Source: Sphingobacterium sp. SGR-19 (GTDB lineage Bacteria; Bacteroidota; Bacteroidia; Sphingobacteriales; Sphingobacteriaceae). From it: a stretch of 64,000 nt of DNA. The stretch spans positions 744,001 to 808,000 of the forward strand of contig NZ_JAAKGS010000002.1 in NCBI RefSeq assembly GCF_011043555.1, written 5' to 3'. The notes below the pieces were generated by a model, which made no database searches, was not told the DNA's origin, and saw nothing but the letters and a program-made list of their open reading frames with translations. Numbering within the stretch: the stretch's first letter is position 1; each line of letters opens with the position of its first letter. A program made the translations under genes and the position numbers. Of the stretch, positions 7,844 to 22,949 are shown one piece after another.

Positions 7844-9520
7844 ATGGCGTATAACCAGCTTAAATACCGGAAAAATTTTGGGTTGCTGATTTCTTTTGTA
7901 ATATTGGTGACGGTGTTATTTGGTGTCGCTATGTTCGCAGCACGATCCATGATAGCTAATTTCATCGAGACCGAATTCAATAACAGGAAGGTAGAGGTTT
8001 TCGATAGATCGGTACAACCTTTTCACGAGTTTTTTAATGACAAGATTCCGGAAATATCATATTATCAAGGGTATCTAGATTCTGTAAAAGCTGCGTCCTA
8101 CGTCAACGACCTCATCCGAAAATATGCTTTTGTTGACCGTGTTCTTTTTTATGATATCACGATCACAAACTCTGACTCGATAGATACCGGAATTAAGTAT
8201 AACCACCTGCTACTTTATCCCAAGAGTATTACTTCTTTCCATTTGGACAAGGATAATCGACTGATCGCTCAACGCCCAGCGGATACGCACACTCGTGCAT
8301 ATATAGACGATTTTAACACCATGGTGCTGAAGTTCGTCGGTTTCTTGGATCGGGTAAACGAATCGACCAGTATGTCAGACGATGAAATATATCGGGTTTT
8401 TTATACGTTAAATCCGGGGAAGGTAACTTACATGAATATCCCGCGTATTTCCGATCTGTTGGTTTATAAACGTATGATGTCTGCTCCGGATACCACCGTT
8501 GTTGCGTATGATCAAGATTTGTTCATGTTTTTAATTGACCCTAGCAAGATTCAAATTAAAAATGTCGCTTTAAATTTATATGAAAAAATAGAGATATTAC
8601 CCATTGTATCCGGTAGCGTGAGCGATCAGCGTTTTTACTTGCAAACGGAACTACCTCTTCCTGGCGCCTTGTCCGATTATAAATTGCAGTATACAAGTTC
8701 CGAGGCATTTATCAATAAAGAAATTAACAGAAGGTTCTTTCCGGTAAGCTTGGGTATATCTGGCGTATATCTCATATTGATTTTGATTGCTTATTTGATT
8801 TATCGGAATGTTACTATCAATAGTAGACTGTTCCAACTTCAATATGACTTTATCAACAATCTGACCCATGAATTTAAGACGCCTGTCAGTGTTATCAAGA
8901 TTGCTGGAAACAATATTCAGAGTAGTGAAAAACTATCGGCAGAGGAACAGCGTATGTATGGACAGATTTTGGATCAAGAAGCAGATAAACTGAACAGTTT
9001 GATGAATAAATTATTGTCATTTGCGCAGATTGAAAACAAATCTATTAAGCCCAATAAAGAAGAGGTAGAAGCCGAAGAGTTTTGCGAGCCGATTTTTGCA
9101 GCTGTTAAATTAAAATATCCTGATTTAAACTTTTCCTATACGATCGATGTCCAAAACAATATGATGGTCGATACAACGCTTTTATTGAGCGTGTTTCAAA
9201 ATCTAATTGACAATGCCTACAAATATTCGGAGCCGCAACGGAAGTTCCTACATATTGATGTGCAACAAAACAAGAAAAATTTTGTTATAAAATTTAAAGA
9301 TAAAGGAATAGGCATAAATAAGAAGGAATTTAATAGTATTTTTAAAAAATTTTATAGAGTAAAGAACCAATTCAACCAACAAGGAAGTATTGGTCTGGGT
9401 TTAGCGTTCTGTAAGGAAATTGTAGATTTCATGGGTGGAGAAATTAAAGTGGATAGCATGCCAGGACAAGGCACCACTTTTACTTTGTTTCTGCCTCTAG
9501 GACCGAAAAGAACTAAATAA
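7844..9520 (+). CDS. Membrane sensor histidine kinase
   Basis: A 558-residue sensor kinase. Transmembrane segments lie at about 13-31 and 301-321 and enclose a 270-residue periplasmic sensor domain without recognised family motifs. The HisKA box is NLTHEFKTPVSV with phospho-acceptor His342. The ATPase domain has the N box (QNLIDNAYKYS), G1 (DKGIGI) and G2 (GSIGLGLAFCKEIV). It is 4 bp from the response regulator gene and 5 bp after the S9-like lipoprotein gene, so a lipoprotein/sensor/regulator operon is likely. The signal is unknown; the inactive S9-like lipoprotein could present it in the periplasm. Confidence 0.92.
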   Translation: MAYNQLKYRKNFGLLISFVILVTVLFGVAMFAARSMIANFIETEFNNRKVEVFDRSVQPFHEFFNDKIPEISYYQGYLDSVKAASYVNDLIRKYAFVDRVLFYDITITNSDSIDTGIKYNHLLLYPKSITSFHLDKDNRLIAQRPADTHTRAYIDDFNTMVLKFVGFLDRVNESTSMSDDEIYRVFYTLNPGKVTYMNIPRISDLLVYKRMMSAPDTTVVAYDQDLFMFLIDPSKIQIKNVALNLYEKIEILPIVSGSVSDQRFYLQTELPLPGALSDYKLQYTSSEAFINKEINRRFFPVSLGISGVYLILILIAYLIYRNVTINSRLFQLQYDFINNLTHEFKTPVSVIKIAGNNIQSSEKLSAEEQRMYGQILDQEADKLNSLMNKLLSFAQIENKSIKPNKEEVEAEEFCEPIFAAVKLKYPDLNFSYTIDVQNNMMVDTTLLLSVFQNLIDNAYKYSEPQRKFLHIDVQQNKKNFVIKFKDKGIGINKKEFNSIFKKFYRVKNQFNQQGSIGLGLAFCKEIVDFMGGEIKVDSMPGQGTTFTLFLPLGPKRTK

Positions 9521-15250: not shown

Positions 15251-15736
15251 TTATTTAACGAGAACAGCATCAACAATCTGAATCTCTGCATTCCCTTTTA
15301 AAGGTTCCGGATTGAATACCATTTTCCCTTTTATTTTAATGGGCTCTTCCGTAAACCTTACAGATTCACTTTTCATGAAGATTTCGACCATGGGTGGGAT
15401 CCCGTTACTTCCACAAAAAGCACATTGCATGACGGGAAGTACAGATAGCATAAATGTCTTATGGTTACGGCCACTGTTTAATGGGACGAGATAGCCCGGA
15501 AGCTCTACAACTCTGTTTTCTAAGGCTTTTAGAACGGGCGGGTAGTGTGGTGTATATACCTTTTTATTGTTTTCTGTGGTCACTTTATACATCATCTTAT
15601 CGACGGCTTCCCAGGTGCTGTTCATCATCGGTGTATGGTCAGGTACGTTCTCCCCAGGGAATTGCCCAATTTGGCCTTTTGCCATACCGAAGGTGAATAA
15701 TGTAATAATAAACGCTAATATCGAGGTCTTCTTCAT
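15251..15736 (-). CDS. Secreted DUF3299-type protein
   Basis: A 161-residue exported protein with a signal peptide (MKKTSILAFIITLFTFGMAKG). The mature part has the DUF3299-like motif VELPGYLVPLN and a Cys pair CAFCG near residue 110, in the position where relatives carry metal-ligand Cys/His residues. It is probably periplasmic. The gene follows the ABC permease by 65 bp on the same strand. Clusters of an ATPase, an FtsX-like permease and a DUF3299 protein occur in proteobacterial zinc-responsive operons (Vibrio zrg, Pseudomonas PA4063-4066, from memory), so a role in zinc or other metal handling is proposed, not shown. Confidence 0.7.
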   Translation of the reverse strand: MKKTSILAFIITLFTFGMAKGQIGQFPGENVPDHTPMMNSTWEAVDKMMYKVTTENNKKVYTPHYPPVLKALENRVVELPGYLVPLNSGRNHKTFMLSVLPVMQCAFCGSNGIPPMVEIFMKSESVRFTEEPIKIKGKMVFNPEPLKGNAEIQIVDAVLVK

Positions 15737-15801
15737 TTTTATCTAACTAATCTAATTTTCTAATTAATCTTCTCTCTCTTCATTTAGAACTCATCACTAT
15801 T

Positions 15802-17217
15802 TTACCTCTCTGCTAAAACCGTTGAAATGGATGTTTTGTAGGCTTTAATAGCTGGAATAATCGCTGCTAAGATGCCCAGTAGACATGCAGCAAGCACTAA
15901 AATCAACTCTTGTCCATGGATGTTAAACGCTTCGATAAAATCGGCACTTTCAGTTGTTTGCTGACCGATAACATACAACGCCCCATGTCCAAACAATAAT
16001 CCCACTATTCCGCCTATCAAAGTAATTACCAACCCTTCGACTAACACCAGACCGAAAAGTTTAGTTTTGGATGCACCCATGGAACGCATGATAGCAAGGT
16101 CGTATTTCCGCTCTTTCAGGGCATTATAAAGACTGATGAATACGCTTAATACCGCGATGAGCATAATAATATAGGCTAAGATCGTGAGTGAGTCTAGTCC
16201 TACACCCAATAACGAAAACAAGCGGGTACTTTCGATTGCGGGAGAAGCGGCTTGCATATCCGTAGATTCATTTACCAGCCGTGGGATTACGCCCATGGCA
16301 GCCGGCGAACTATATTTAACCAACAGCGCGGTCACTTCCTCGCCGCGATCTTCCAGCATATCCGCTCCGATACTTTTTACAAATAGGTCGTTTTGTTTTT
16401 CAGAAACCATTTCTTCATGGTCATGTCCGTCTTCGCTATGCGTATGTTCATGATCACGATGTTCGTGCGCGTGGTGATCGTGGTCATGTTGGTGCCCGTC
16501 GTGGTCGTGATCGTGTTCATGATTTTCATCACGTGTATGTCCGCTATGATCATGTGTATGGTCATGGTCGTGTTCGTGGCTATGATCGTGGTCACCATGG
16601 TGGAGCCCGTGGACATCCCACACGCTTTCCAGATTACATAGGATGAGGTTATCTACGACAGATCCCGATTTTTCCAGAATGCCGACTATTTTAAAAGGAT
16701 GATCATCGTGGACATGGCCATCTTCCGACAGACCGTGAGCAGTGAAAAATTCATCTCCTATTCCCAAACCTCTTTTACGCGCTACCTCACTTCCTATTAC
16801 AGCTTCAAAGGAAGTTTTCCATAGTTCCCCGTTTTGAATAGATAAACCATATAACTCCAGATAAGTGGGTTCCGTACCAATGACGCGGTGTCCTTTGAAG
16901 TTATCTCCCAAAGAGACAGGAACCGCCATTTCAATAAATGGATTGTCGCTAAGTTGGCGTGCTTGTGCCAATGCTATGTTGCCGGTAGGATTGTCTACAT
17001 GGTAAAGCGAGCTCAGAATGAGTTGTAAAGGGCTCCCCTTTGCCCCAACGACAAGATCGATGTTTTTTGTGTTGCTTGTCAGCTGTTTCTCAAAGGTATC
17101 TCCCGTAATATAAATAACGCATAGTATAGCTACCCCAAAAGCGGTAAGCAGTATACTGAGCAAGGTGGAGCCCAGTTGTTGTGTAATATTTTTCCAGACG
17201 AGTTGCAAATTATTCAT
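15802..17217 (-). CDS. FtsX-type ABC permease with a His-rich periplasmic loop
   Basis: A 471-residue permease with the MacB/FtsX layout: one N-terminal transmembrane helix (about 19-38), a large periplasmic domain (40-340) and three C-terminal helices (about 343-363, 388-413, 437-457), including the KERKYDLAIMRSMGAS coupling segment. The periplasmic domain contains an insert at about 203-267 with 28 His in 65 residues, mostly HD/HE/HT repeats, which must bind transition metals such as Zn2+. The domain also has further His at 161-173. It is 2 bp downstream of the ATPase gene. Probably it moves or hands over metal or a metal-bound ligand at the inner membrane. Confidence 0.88.
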   Translation of the reverse strand: MNNLQLVWKNITQQLGSTLLSILLTAFGVAILCVIYITGDTFEKQLTSNTKNIDLVVGAKGSPLQLILSSLYHVDNPTGNIALAQARQLSDNPFIEMAVPVSLGDNFKGHRVIGTEPTYLELYGLSIQNGELWKTSFEAVIGSEVARKRGLGIGDEFFTAHGLSEDGHVHDDHPFKIVGILEKSGSVVDNLILCNLESVWDVHGLHHGDHDHSHEHDHDHTHDHSGHTRDENHEHDHDHDGHQHDHDHHAHEHRDHEHTHSEDGHDHEEMVSEKQNDLFVKSIGADMLEDRGEEVTALLVKYSSPAAMGVIPRLVNESTDMQAASPAIESTRLFSLLGVGLDSLTILAYIIMLIAVLSVFISLYNALKERKYDLAIMRSMGASKTKLFGLVLVEGLVITLIGGIVGLLFGHGALYVIGQQTTESADFIEAFNIHGQELILVLAACLLGILAAIIPAIKAYKTSISTVLAER

Positions 17218-17219
17218 AG

Positions 17220-17858
17220 TTACAGCTGATAGGAGTTTACGAATTGATCTTTAATGCGTTTGTCGTGGGTCGCAATGAGCAGCGTGGAACCATAGGTACT
17301 AGCAATATTGAAAAGTAATTGCAGTACTAAATCGGTATTCTTATCGTCTAAGGACGCAGTGGGCTCATCAGCGAGCAGTAACCCTGGACGGTTAATGACT
17401 GCTCTGGCGATAGCAACACGTTGTTTTTGTCCGCGGCTCAGCTGGCTCGGCAATGCATGGGCTTTATCCTTTAATTGCAGCTGATCCAACATCTCGATAA
17501 TCGCTTGGGCGTCCACCGAATTTTTGGCAAGGCTCTGCGCCAGCTTGATATTTTCGGTTACGGTGAGGTTTCGCAGGAGGTGTGCTTCTTGAAATATAAA
17601 TCCAAGATTCTTTGCACGGAACGCATCTAACGTAGTTCCGCTCATGGCGTATAACGATTGGTTCACCAAATGAACTTCGCCAGTTGTGGGTTTGGATAGA
17701 CCACTCAGTAAATGCAAGAGCGTGGTTTTTCCTGTTCCCGAATCCCCTAAGAGTAAGCTATGTTGGTTTTTTTGTATATGGATATCCGGAAATTCCAGTT
17801 TGACACCCTGTGGATATTGGTAACTTAACCCAACGGATGATAGTACCGTATCTGCCAT
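17220..17858 (-). CDS. ABC transporter ATP-binding protein (LolD/MacB type)
   Basis: A 212-residue ATPase with Walker A GDSGTGKTT (38-46), Q-loop in IFQEAHLL, signature LSRGQKQRVAIARA, Walker B LLLADEPTASLDD and the switch His in ATHDKRI. Sequence and size fit the LolD/MacB/FtsE group that pairs with FtsX-type permeases. It is the first gene of a minus-strand set, with the permease 2 bp downstream and the DUF3299 gene after that. The group's members usually drive mechanical work in the envelope, not simple import. Confidence 0.93.
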   Translation of the reverse strand: MADTVLSSVGLSYQYPQGVKLEFPDIHIQKNQHSLLLGDSGTGKTTLLHLLSGLSKPTTGEVHLVNQSLYAMSGTTLDAFRAKNLGFIFQEAHLLRNLTVTENIKLAQSLAKNSVDAQAIIEMLDQLQLKDKAHALPSQLSRGQKQRVAIARAVINRPGLLLADEPTASLDDKNTDLVLQLLFNIASTYGSTLLIATHDKRIKDQFVNSYQL

Positions 17859-17891
17859 AGTCTGTTGTGTTAAAACGTCTTAAATAATAAA

Positions 17892-18212
17892 TTATAAAGC
17901 ACTTGCTTCTTCCATATGGTTATTTGTAATGTAAGTTACTAAATAACGATTTTCTATATTTTCAAAGAAGATATACCAAGTCGTGCGGTTATTGGCTTTA
18001 TAGAATACATACTTCGTGCCGTACCGGCTGAGGTTATGTGGTGTTTGTTTCGGAGGGAACTTTACAAGTTCATATTCAATGAAATCATAAATTCTTGATA
18101 CGTAAATCTGTGCAGATTCTTCAAAACCAAAATATTCTTTTTCAAAGAGGACCCGGATAAGATTTTCAAGGAAATCAATGGCATCTTCCTGGAGGATAAC
18201 TACTTTTTCCAA
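17892..18212 (-). CDS. RelE/ParE-like toxin
   Basis: A 106-residue protein with the compact alpha/beta pattern of RelE/ParE superfamily toxins: helices DAIDFLENLIRVLFEKEYF and SAQIYVSRIYDFIEYEL, then beta strands with aromatic and basic residues (KYVFYKANNRTTWYIFFE, RYLVTYITNNH). Such toxins cleave mRNA on the ribosome or poison gyrase. The only sensible start is a TTG at 18210-18212 inside the antitoxin's last codons, a 13-base overlap implying coupled translation. Assignment rests on size, gene order and overlap; the superfamily is poorly conserved in sequence. Confidence 0.65.
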   Translation of the reverse strand: MEKVVILQEDAIDFLENLIRVLFEKEYFGFEESAQIYVSRIYDFIEYELVKFPPKQTPHNLSRYGTKYVFYKANNRTTWYIFFENIENRYLVTYITNNHMEEASAL

Positions 18213-18403
18213 GGCAACGATTTTATAAAATCAGCTGTTTTTTCTCTTGCTTCGTTAATAGATACTCCTTTTTTCCATTCTTTTTCAAAATCAACAGAAT
18301 CTGAGTCCTTGTTTTTAATCCTCTTAATCTGTTCAATAACAAAAGGATTTTTTAAAGAATTTATCCACTCGATGATTTCTTTTTTTTCAACTGCTATATC
18401 CAT
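18200..18403 (-). CDS. Antitoxin partner of the RelE/ParE-like toxin
   Basis: A 67-residue, Lys/Glu-rich, mostly helical protein (MDIAVEKKEIIEWINSLKNPF...) placed directly upstream of the toxin with a 13-base overlap. Proteins of this type bind the toxin through an extended C-terminal helix (here SINEAREKTADFIKSLPWKK) and often repress their own operon. No classical DNA-binding motif is evident. The pair is separated by 33 bp from the ABC ATPase gene on the same strand, with no obvious terminator between. Confidence 0.6.
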   Translation of the reverse strand: MDIAVEKKEIIEWINSLKNPFVIEQIKRIKNKDSDSVDFEKEWKKGVSINEAREKTADFIKSLPWKK

Positions 18404-18737
18404 TTTGCTTCATTTTATCGTATTATCAAAGTTAAGGATTTTTGTTTAGAAAGTTTAATGTTTTGCCGATCAACCTCTGGTGCCCTTTGCCAGAACAACG
18501 CATTAGTTATCCATATGTGTTTGTCTTTATGGAATTATACACAACTCCGAATAAACAAATGGGGGGACGCCCGGATTTAACGAAAAAAATACAAAAATGC
18601 AGAGAGCACCGTCTTTATTGGTTCTTTGTGTAACGTTAAAACAATGTTAAGTTGTATTAATGTATAAATAATATATAGGCAACATTCAGTTAATATTAAC
18701 ACGGTTATTTTGCATCAGATAACAAAAACATTTGATC
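18404..18737. promoter_or_regulatory. 334-bp divergent intergenic region with 11-bp-spaced GTTAA repeats
   Basis: This gap separates the toxin-antitoxin genes from the lipoprotein/TonB receptor pair. It contains GTTAA at 18635-18639 and 18646-18650 (11-bp spacing), then ATTAA at 18656-18660, followed by an AT-rich box and a perfect 12-bp palindrome GTTAATATTAAC (18689-18700). An imperfect -7 box TTATTTTG lies at about 18704-18711. Direct repeats one helical turn apart resemble PhoB-type sites, but this is inference. Nothing else is seen from 18404 to 18620. Confidence 0.45.
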
Positions 18738-20129: not shown

Positions 20130-22949
20130 ATGAACAAGCAAATTTTTTTGCTACTACTCAGTATCATTCCTCTTGCGTTATTTTCGCAAACCGGGCGAAT
20201 CACTGGAACAATTACGGATGAAAATACGAATGCCACGATTACTGGCGTTAGTGTCATGACTATAGGTGGTACGCAGGCTGCGAGCTCTGACTTTGAAGGC
20301 AAATATACCATCGAAGTAGCGCCTGGTACTTATACAGTATTATTTAGCTATATAGGTTACGCAAGTAAAGAAATTACCGACGTAAAAGTAACCGAAGGCA
20401 AAGCCACGATAGTAGATATCGCGTTAGCACCTTCCTCCGATGAATTGGAGGCGGTTGTCGTATCGGTATCAGCGAGACAAAATACCGAAGCATCAATTTT
20501 AAATATGCAAAAGAATGCCGGCATAGTTATGGATGGTTTGTCTTCACAATCTATGAAACGTGTCGGAGCAAGTGATATCGCTGCTGCTGTCAAGATAGTG
20601 CCTGGGGTGTCGGTACAAGAGGGGAAGTACGTATACGTGCGTGGACTAGGCGACCGCTATACAAAGACCACTTTAAATGGGTTGGATATTCCGGGTTTGG
20701 ATCCAGACAAGAACACCGTGCAGATGGATATCTTCCCCACAGGCGTATTAGAAAATATTATCGTTAAGAAATCGGCGTCTGCTGAATTGCCTGCCGACTT
20801 TACCGGGGGGGTAGTAGATATCGTGACGAAAGATATACCAACGCAGAAACAAATCGGTCTTTCTTTGTCTTTGGGTTATAACCCGAATATGCATTTTAAA
20901 GATAACTTTGTAAGTTACAAAGGAAGTGCAACCGACTTTTTGGGCTTTGATAATGGAGATAGAAAACTTCCAGTTGCTAATACTTATGAAATTCCGAATG
21001 TCGTTGTCCCTGCTAATAAATCAACCGTCGAAAGTGTAACCAAAGCTTTTAATCCGCTTTTGGGGGCGGAAAGAAAGACGAATAGTATGCCAGATTTGTC
21101 GCTAGCATTCGATTTTAGCAATCAGTATGATCTATGGGGAAATAAACTGGGGGTTATAGGGGTGTTGAATTACAAGAAAACGACTAGTTTCTACGAAGGC
21201 TATAAAAATAATATCTACCAAAAGCCGAATCAAACCGACCCGAGTTCAGAATTACGCCCTGACCAGTTGATTACAGGAGATCTAGGAGAGCAAAACGTAT
21301 TGTTGTCCGGAATGTTAGGTTTAAACTATAAAACACAGCGTTCGAAATACAGTCTGAATTTGTTGCATATCCAAAATGGTGAGTCTCGATCAGCTATGTA
21401 CGATCAAGTTAACCGAATTGCGAATTCGAATGAGTTGTATAAAAATGTATTAGATTATAGCGAACGTTCAATTTCTAATATCTTATTGAGCGGTAAGCAC
21501 AGTAATGAGGACGCGGATTTTATTACCGAATGGAAGGTGTCTCCTTCTTTATCCCGAGTAAATGATAAAGACGTGCGTGTATCTACGTTCCTTTTGGATG
21601 GTACGGGTAATTATGTGATGGCGACAGATGCAGATTTACCCGTCCGTATATGGCGTTCGTTGGAAGAAATAAACGTGGTAAGTAAGGTCGACTTTACTAA
21701 GAAATTAGAATTTTTCGAGCGTGACGCTGCTTTAAAATTCGGCGGTTTGTACAGCTATAAACAACGGGACTATCGTATTAATGATTATCAGGTGAATTAT
21801 CGGAATATTGGAAGGGGTACCGCGAATGGTGATTTTAATGCGATTCTGAGCCCAGAAAATATTTACGACGCTGATACAGATAAAGGGTTTTATATGTTAG
21901 GCAGCCCACAGGCAGCGAATATCTTTGATGCATCTCAGCACACGGCAGCTGCTTATGGTTCCTTGGAAGTTAATCCTTGGGAGAAATTTAGAGCCATCGT
22001 TGGTTTACGTGCGGAACAATACACATCCTTCTTCACGGGAGAAAATGTGGAACGTGTAACATACGATAATGTGAAGACAATCAATAATTTTGATTTCTTT
22101 CCATCCTTAAACTTGATTTATAATCCGTATTCAAACCACAACCTGCGTGCATCTTACTCGCGTACAACTGCCCGTCCTTCCTTTAAGGAGTTGTCCGTGA
22201 TACAGATTTATGATCCGATTTCAAATACCTATTTTTTGGGTAACTTAGATCTGGTTCCTACATACATCAATAATATGGATTTACGTTATGAGATTTTTGG
22301 TGAACAAGCACAAATGATTGCAGTGAGTGCTTTCTATAAACGTTTTCAAGACCCGATTGAAATACAGGCGTTTTCGTCAGCTGCTAGGCACCAGTTTATT
22401 GCTCGTAATTCGGGAACGGCAGATGTTTATGGGCTCGAGTTTGAAATGCGTAAAAACTTTGGGTTCGTTTCCGAAGCGCTTCGCGACATGAGCTTTAACT
22501 TGAACGCATCGGTCGTAAAATCTTCGATTGAAATGGGCGATAGTGAGTATCAGTCACGCGTTTTATTCGCGCGAGATGGTGAAAAGGTGGATCGTAAACG
22601 TGAATTGCAAGGCCAATCACCTTACTTAGTCAATGCTGGTTTGAGTTATAATAACGGTGATAACGGTTTTGAGGCGGGTGTTTTCTATAATGTACAAGGG
22701 AAGACTTTAGAGTTTATCGGCTTCAGTCAGAACTCTGATATTTATGTCAAGCCTTTCAATAGTTTGAACGTAAACATAGGTAAAAAGTTAGGGCCGGAGT
22801 TTCGTTGGGGTACTGTCAGCTTGAAAGTAGACAACCTATTGGACAGCAAGCGTATGAGTGTATATGAAGCTTATATGGCTGCGGACCAAATTTATTCATT
22901 ACGAGCACCAAGACGTACCTTCACATTAGGCTATAGCTATAATTTTTAA
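20130..22949 (+). CDS. TonB-dependent receptor with CarboxypepD_reg-like domain
   Basis: A 939-residue outer membrane receptor. After a signal peptide (about 1-20) come a carboxypeptidase-regulatory-like domain (about 22-105, GRITGTITDENTNATITGVSV), the plug domain (about 120-240, with VPGVSVQEGKYVYVRGLGDRYTKTTLNG) and a 22-strand barrel ending in an aromatic residue (LGYSYNF). It imports ligands across the outer membrane with TonB energy. Lipoprotein gene upstream and lack of a SusD partner set it apart from glycan-type SusCD pairs. The ligand is unknown. A terminator follows. Confidence 0.93.
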   Translation: MNKQIFLLLLSIIPLALFSQTGRITGTITDENTNATITGVSVMTIGGTQAASSDFEGKYTIEVAPGTYTVLFSYIGYASKEITDVKVTEGKATIVDIALAPSSDELEAVVVSVSARQNTEASILNMQKNAGIVMDGLSSQSMKRVGASDIAAAVKIVPGVSVQEGKYVYVRGLGDRYTKTTLNGLDIPGLDPDKNTVQMDIFPTGVLENIIVKKSASAELPADFTGGVVDIVTKDIPTQKQIGLSLSLGYNPNMHFKDNFVSYKGSATDFLGFDNGDRKLPVANTYEIPNVVVPANKSTVESVTKAFNPLLGAERKTNSMPDLSLAFDFSNQYDLWGNKLGVIGVLNYKKTTSFYEGYKNNIYQKPNQTDPSSELRPDQLITGDLGEQNVLLSGMLGLNYKTQRSKYSLNLLHIQNGESRSAMYDQVNRIANSNELYKNVLDYSERSISNILLSGKHSNEDADFITEWKVSPSLSRVNDKDVRVSTFLLDGTGNYVMATDADLPVRIWRSLEEINVVSKVDFTKKLEFFERDAALKFGGLYSYKQRDYRINDYQVNYRNIGRGTANGDFNAILSPENIYDADTDKGFYMLGSPQAANIFDASQHTAAAYGSLEVNPWEKFRAIVGLRAEQYTSFFTGENVERVTYDNVKTINNFDFFPSLNLIYNPYSNHNLRASYSRTTARPSFKELSVIQIYDPISNTYFLGNLDLVPTYINNMDLRYEIFGEQAQMIAVSAFYKRFQDPIEIQAFSSAARHQFIARNSGTADVYGLEFEMRKNFGFVSEALRDMSFNLNASVVKSSIEMGDSEYQSRVLFARDGEKVDRKRELQGQSPYLVNAGLSYNNGDNGFEAGVFYNVQGKTLEFIGFSQNSDIYVKPFNSLNVNIGKKLGPEFRWGTVSLKVDNLLDSKRMSVYEAYMAADQIYSLRAPRRTFTLGYSYNF

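Follow-up and report, generated by a model that had tools for sequence, protein, structure and literature searches.

The window analysed here, a stretch of 64,000 nucleotides from Sphingobacterium sp. SGR-19 (contig NZ_JAAKGS010000002.1, positions 744,001 to 808,000 of the forward strand), contains at positions 15,251 to 17,858 a three-gene operon for an ATP-binding cassette (ABC) ATPase, a MacB/FtsX-type permease with a His-rich stretch and a DUF3299-like exported protein. Here it is proposed that these genes probably encode a ZrgBCE-type ABC machine of Bacteroidota, working without ZrgA and used in zinc (possibly zinc/cobalt) homeostasis. The relationship of the permease to ZrgB is well supported by sequence comparison, and the sequences support the description of a Zrg-like system whose permease carries the His-rich part; the zinc role, judged from gene context, is likely. 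This would extend the Zrg-type system from proteobacteria to Bacteroidota, a version of which was not found in the open-licence PMC literature, subscription papers lying outside that scope. The genes and the key elements of the permease are as follows.

17220..17858, minus strand: ABC ATPase (ZrgC/LolD-type), 212 amino acids; open reading frame (ORF) with Pfam ABC_tran at 112.3 bits
15802..17217, minus strand: MacB/FtsX-type permease, ZrgB relative, 471 amino acids; ORF with Pfam MacB_PCD at 55 bits and FtsX at 63 bits
15251..15736, minus strand: DUF3299-like exported protein (ZrgE/PA4066 relative), 161 amino acids, with CxxC (C105, C108); Pfam 20.4 bits, just below the cut-off of 22
16417..16611, minus strand: His-rich, predicted disordered insertion, permease residues 203-267, with 28 His in 65, at the same alignment site in relatives
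16735..16737, minus strand: codon of conserved His161, found in 62/62 family permeases and 0/10 outgroups
16708..16710, minus strand: codon of conserved His170, 61/62 family permeases and 0/10 outgroups
16609..16611, minus strand: codon of conserved His203, directly before the His-rich insertion, 61/62 family permeases and 0/10 outgroups

Gene content and relationship of the permease to ZrgB

All three ORFs lie on the minus strand at the positions given by the first-pass annotation, which had matched the ATPase, the FtsX-type permease and the DUF3299 protein to the gene content of zrg operons; this agrees with the published naming of zrgC, zrgB and zrgE, with zrgA as DUF2796 (PMC9817125, drawn on in excerpt, as are the other papers cited here). 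The ATPase and the permease are two separate ORFs, not a single MacB-like chain, and the ATPase gene adjoins the permease gene as in Zrg systems. The ORF list has no fourth operon gene of at least 90 amino acids, although no profile search aimed at ZrgD (DUF2607) was made.

With the window permease as query, a Pseudomonadaceae metagenome-assembled genome (MAG) yielded a full-length relative at 26% identity (locus L031), and this locus is a complete zrg cluster with ZrgA (183 bits), ATPase, permease and DUF3299 protein (150 bits). The permease of this MAG and the copy on a P. aeruginosa plasmid (L148) fall in the same permease group as that of the window and have the same three His. In a maximum likelihood tree of 72 rows, the split between 10 other FtsX/MacB permeases and the 62 rows of ZrgB type has support of 96/96, and the branch as drawn for the latter has 89/76; all 12 permeases encoded in ZrgA clusters group together (96/96). 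The outgroup branches are long, which makes the deep branching order unsure. The permease set was drawn from 84 loci, leaving out 9 without a full permease (L030, L111, L115, L149, L158, L160-L162, L164), and the tree was built without 14 near-identical Sphingobacterium rows, while two of the 12 intended outgroup loci yielded no usable row.

The permease model (29-row alignment, predicted local distance difference test score, pLDDT, 72.8) starts with one long helix, followed by a large domain of mixed structure and three further helices, with four transmembrane helices predicted at residues 15-50, 326-369, 384-420 and 435-461. Its fold matches MacB (Z 19.4, E 3.7e-14), LolE (Z 23), HrtB and a pneumococcal MacB-like transporter, with Z of 19-25 for the first three. 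The match to LolE, together with LolD (181.7 bits for the ATPase) and LolCE (59.3 bits for the permease) as the nearest named NCBIfam families, would fit a LolCDE-like complex for lipoproteins or envelope stress, to which the His loop would be incidental. Nevertheless, both scores miss the cut-offs of the two models by far (307.75 and 362.45), the outgroup permeases have no His motif, and the gene set with DUF3299 is the zrg set, so that such a complex is very improbable. The MacB model of NCBIfam is likewise missed by the permease, with 15 bits against a cut-off of 966.

His-rich stretch and conserved His motif

The 28 His in 65 residues that had been noted in the permease were confirmed at residues 203-267, which are its densest window of that length and also contain 20 Asp/Glu. 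Residues 205-290 have a pLDDT below 50 and lie inside the MacB-type periplasmic domain, and in the model the His stretch is a predicted disordered insertion in that domain, not a folded domain of its own. Since a full reading frame is present in 75 homologous permeases, and 11-28 His per 65 are found in 42/42 permeases sampled from Sphingobacterium and Parapedobacter, the stretch is neither chance composition nor a frameshift. It falls at a single alignment site across relatives: in proteobacterial rows a short loop comes immediately after the equivalent of His203, in Sphingobacterium the His-rich stretch does, and permeases of other Bacteroidota lineages (L119-L121) have 28-32 His per 65 at the same site. 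Conservation of H161, H170 and H203 points to a putative metal site formed by these residues. D189 is also found in 62/62 ZrgB-type permeases, yet it is common in the outgroups as well.

A separate ZrgA, which the first-pass annotation had proposed to look for in Bacteroidota, was not found by the profile search, with PF10986 over cut-off in 0/296 Bacteroidota genomes (four sub-threshold matches, 20-25 bits) and no match in the genome of the window. The same family was over cut-off in 11/114 genomes of the proteobacterial class of the Pseudomonadaceae MAG, and scored 183.5 bits in the genome used as positive control. At their most His-rich 65 residues, the 12 permeases encoded in ZrgA clusters have 3-5 His (one of them, L163, classed by its PF10986 match of 48.6 bits and not by BLAST) and 63 others have 3-32; at least 10 are reached in 54 of these 63, of which 42 come from Sphingobacterium and Parapedobacter. 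Outside these two genera, at least 10 His per 65 are found in 12/21 permeases without ZrgA. Over the whole set, ZrgA-side permeases differ in His count from 13 family medians (Mann-Whitney, p = 1.7e-4). Within the sample, no permease with a His-rich stretch occurs together with ZrgA, and ZrgA can be missing without such a stretch. The earlier description of a "fused" machine was too strong, as the His-rich part does lie inside the permease, but it is a disordered stretch only and no ZrgA fold is fused.

Distribution of the gene set

The three-gene set sought in Bacteroidota was found throughout the genus and in further lineages. A permease orthologue is present in 35/36 genus genomes searched, including that of the window, and the only genome without it (G032) is 85% complete. 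ATPase, permease and DUF3299-like genes occur in the same order in 28/28 named loci (L001-L028), in one of which (L017) the ATPase gene is cut by the contig end, and in 30/30 further genus loci (L034-L063), of which only 9 entered the permease set. Thus, as read from these sequences, the ATPase, a ZrgB-group permease with four predicted transmembrane helices and a putative periplasmic DUF3299-like protein are encoded together across the genus. DUF3299-like profile matches were obtained in 57/395 Bacteroidota genomes, and in 17 of 20 regions taken from such matches a full permease lies beside the DUF3299-like gene; L111 is truncated, and L115 and L125 have the DUF3299-like gene without permease. 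Loci outside the genus were mostly located through DUF3299-like matches, which biases the sample to operons having this gene. No relative was found in viral contigs. A Planctomycetia MAG (L029, 1254-5771) also encodes an ATPase and a ZrgB-type permease with 18 His per 65; two genes further along comes a DUF3299-like protein with an additional DUF4190-like stretch.

The DUF3299-like protein of the window has bridging homologues that exceed the Pfam cut-off, with 37-70 bits. Its profile matched structure 4hsp at E 8.7e-19 when a proteobacterial row was included and at E 0.2 without that row, so that the strong match is driven by the proteobacterial row. C105 and C108 of the CxxC are invariant (16/16). 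Identification by fold was given up: the predicted structure is of low confidence (pLDDT 66.6), nothing was matched by Foldseek at E <0.001, and the rows shown did not include 4hsp, many of them being OB-fold proteins. Multiple copies also occur: four DUF3299-like genes in one operon, with a Fur-family gene among them, in L106 (7999-12713), and tandem genes in L066 (two) and L068 (three).

Metal context and regulation

The zinc link rests on the gene context of relatives, namely a zigA-type GTPase, a Fur-family gene inside the operon and MerC, and on the missing ZnuA-type protein in the genome of the window. In L124 a zigA-type GTPase gene immediately precedes the set (570 bits against a cut-off of 600), in L123 it stands two genes on (598 bits, same cut-off), and in L125 it is divergent, beside the lone DUF3299-like gene. 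In L106, from another genus of the same family, one strand encodes MerC, ATPase, permease, three DUF3299-like proteins, a Fur-family protein and a fourth DUF3299-like protein; this Fur protein has 50% identity to one of the two Fur proteins in the genome of the window. MerC is found in L106, L110 and L115, and two proteobacterial sets (L150, L151) adjoin genes for Fur-type, zinc-binding and GTP-binding proteins. The ZnuA family had no match in the genome of the window, in a search whose control was positive in 11 of 14, which raises the question of its main zinc route. A single zigA-type gene is present in this genome; it lies on a different contig, downstream of genes for a TonB receptor and two lipoprotein-like proteins (L132, 6459-11695); the region is a candidate second zinc operon.

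Several observations weigh against the proposed role. The His loop of V. cholerae ZrgA is not essential (PMC9820375). Four loci (L114, L116-L118) have no recognised ATPase adjoining the permease. Among the 21 permeases without ZrgA outside Sphingobacterium and Parapedobacter, 9 have only 3-9 His per 65, including that of the L106 operon, which has the best zinc context; because several relatives lack both ZrgA and a His-rich loop, the exchange of one for the other is not strict. The Fur protein of L106 scores 34.8 bits for Zur and 36.2 bits for Fur, both far below the NCBIfam cut-offs, and is not assignable to Zur. A TGCAACA-type palindrome, drawn from zinc genes of relatives, occurs at chance level in the genome of the window (14 sites with up to two mismatches against 12 for the reversed control) and is absent upstream of the operon. 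Finally, other neighbourhoods give no hint of a metal or point to copper, with SCO1 and cytochrome c near L107, a CopZ-like HMA lipoprotein near L121, DUF192 near L119-L121 and HMA near L124.

His-rich loops are able to bind both zinc and copper, and with the neighbours just named and MerC in three loci the system could handle copper (or copper/mercury) instead of zinc. This is quite unlikely, as zigA-type GTPase genes stand beside the set in L124 and L123, and the proteobacterial relatives are described as zinc- and Zur-regulated (PMC9817125, PMC11481552). For the proposed zinc system, a role under zinc scarcity is more likely than one in detoxification, both of which had been suggested in the first-pass annotation.

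The first-pass annotation had also suggested looking for Zur sites upstream of 17858. The palindrome scan, which covered the region before the ATPase gene in L001-L031, in the window and in L069 as well as upstream of relatives' genes, gave none at the operon. Sites like TGCAACANTGTTGCA lie upstream of the zigA/DUF3299 genes in L125 (one mismatch, at about 8630-8730), of MerC-ATPase in L106 (two, upstream of 12713) and of the operon in L120 (two) and L119 (three), where this TGCAAC-type palindrome may be a regulator site of these lineages. As a Zur box it was dropped, being at chance level in the genome, with all ten sites returned there as loci falling inside ORFs, and missing from the operon. 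A different, perfect 20-base palindrome, AATATTATGAGCATAATATT, lies some 185 bases before the ATPase gene of seven species (L001-L005, L027, L028), in the divergent region between receptor and ATPase genes.

Upstream region and the flanking receptor pair

Four features lie upstream of the operon.

17874..18533, minus strand: insertion of roughly 660 bases that contains two short, overlapping ORFs, from comparison with L005, L028 and L001
18534..18595, minus strand: conserved upstream block, probable old operon promoter region, 81-90% identity to L005, L028 and L001
18732..19961, plus strand: beta-helix-like lipoprotein (C9), kept neighbour, possible functional partner only
20130..22949, plus strand: TonB-dependent receptor, kept neighbour, possible functional partner only

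In L005, L028 and L001 the gap between the upstream block and the conserved region at the start of the ATPase gene is only 18 bases, and the operon of the window may have lost its old promoter through the insertion. The ORFs of the insertion (17892-18212, 106 amino acids; 18200-18403, 67 amino acids) resemble a toxin-antitoxin pair by arrangement only, and this identity was rejected, with no Pfam family and one weak PHROG match.

The TonB receptor and the beta-helix-like lipoprotein are beside the operon in 25/28 named loci; L006 is without the pair, and L017 and L018 have too little upstream sequence. Order and orientation of the pair vary among loci (L001-L028, L069-L071, L074, L075 and the window), and the receptors of 24 loci form four groups at 42% identity. 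The receptor of the window has 25% identity to that of L028, although their ABC genes are 92-95% identical, which hints that the pair is exchanged like for like and has a working link with the operon. As proof of function the pair was not accepted, since homologues of the lipoprotein occur at two further places in the genome, and the pair did not appear next to the operon in the further families that were looked at.

The adjoining receptor could also import a molecule that the ABC genes send out, if these formed a MacB-type exporter of a metal-loaded small molecule (a metallophore or metal complex), in which the loop senses or strips the metal. The MacB fold match given above agrees with this, as does P. 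aeruginosa, where PA4064-PA4065 are read as part of a MacB-type exporter of pyochelin-cobalt, a MacB-type fold is predicted for the permease too, and deletion of PA4065 in a znuA zrmB background leads to accumulation of pyochelin and cobalt (PMC11481552). Against it, the conserved His motif and the loop sit in the periplasmic domain, and in the neighbourhoods examined neither a MacA-like adaptor or TolC-like outer-membrane channel gene nor a metallophore gene was noticed beside the operon, genome-wide searches for these not having been made. Export of this kind is unlikely here.

Proposed mechanism

In the proposed zinc system, the His/Asp-rich loop would gather Zn2+ with low affinity and high capacity and pass it to the H161/H170/H203 motif, doing the job that ZrgA has in proteobacteria. 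ATP hydrolysis, relayed through the four helices as in MacB/LolCDE, would alter the metal site, and the metal would be released to the next carrier, for which the DUF3299 protein with its CxxC is a candidate. Import, export and periplasmic handling are all open to a Zrg-type machine, and the cited papers disagree on them. A tentative possibility is that Zrg-type complexes neither import nor export metal but use ATP to move it within the periplasm, with a force-transmitting permease like LolCDE/FtsEX that takes zinc from its own loop at H161/H170/H203 and hands it to a periplasmic acceptor. Candidates for this acceptor are the DUF3299 protein with its CxxC or some other carrier, possibly supplied through the adjoining TonB receptor; proteobacteria would split the same job between ZrgA and ZrgB. 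If true, this could reconcile the importer view from V. cholerae with the exporter view from P. aeruginosa.

Comparison with known systems

MacAB-TolC has the same permease fold, with four helices and a large domain between the first and second transmembrane helices, whereas the operon described here has a separate ATPase protein, a His motif and a His loop. ZnuABC is similar in being an ABC system whose metal path includes a His-rich loop, there carried by ZnuA; in contrast, the permease here is of the MacB/FtsX type and the genome has no ZnuA-family protein. PA4063-PA4066 of P. aeruginosa has the same core genes, but PA4063, the structure of which has been reported (PMC8561739), is a separate His-rich periplasmic protein, and the reported function is pyochelin-cobalt export (PMC11481552).

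A likeness in gene content is also described for ZrgABCDE of V. cholerae and V. parahaemolyticus (the Vibrio side being taken from papers, not sequence), with an ATPase, a MacB-like permease of four transmembrane helices and a DUF3299 protein in one operon. That operon is Zur-controlled and up 76-206 fold under zinc limitation (PMC9817125), and in V. cholerae ZrgA is needed, ZrgB looks MacB-like and the system is read as an importer (PMC9820375). By comparison, the Sphingobacterium operon has a His-rich stretch in the permease, a divergent DUF3299 protein with CxxC, no fourth gene and no ZrgA found. Two research groups thus disagree on Zrg, as an importer with ZrgA as binding protein or as a MacB-type metallophore exporter. 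A natural version without ZrgA, in which the loop is tethered to a permease with the group-wide three-His motif, makes the function testable in one polypeptide and could help to settle what the Zrg machine does with its metal.

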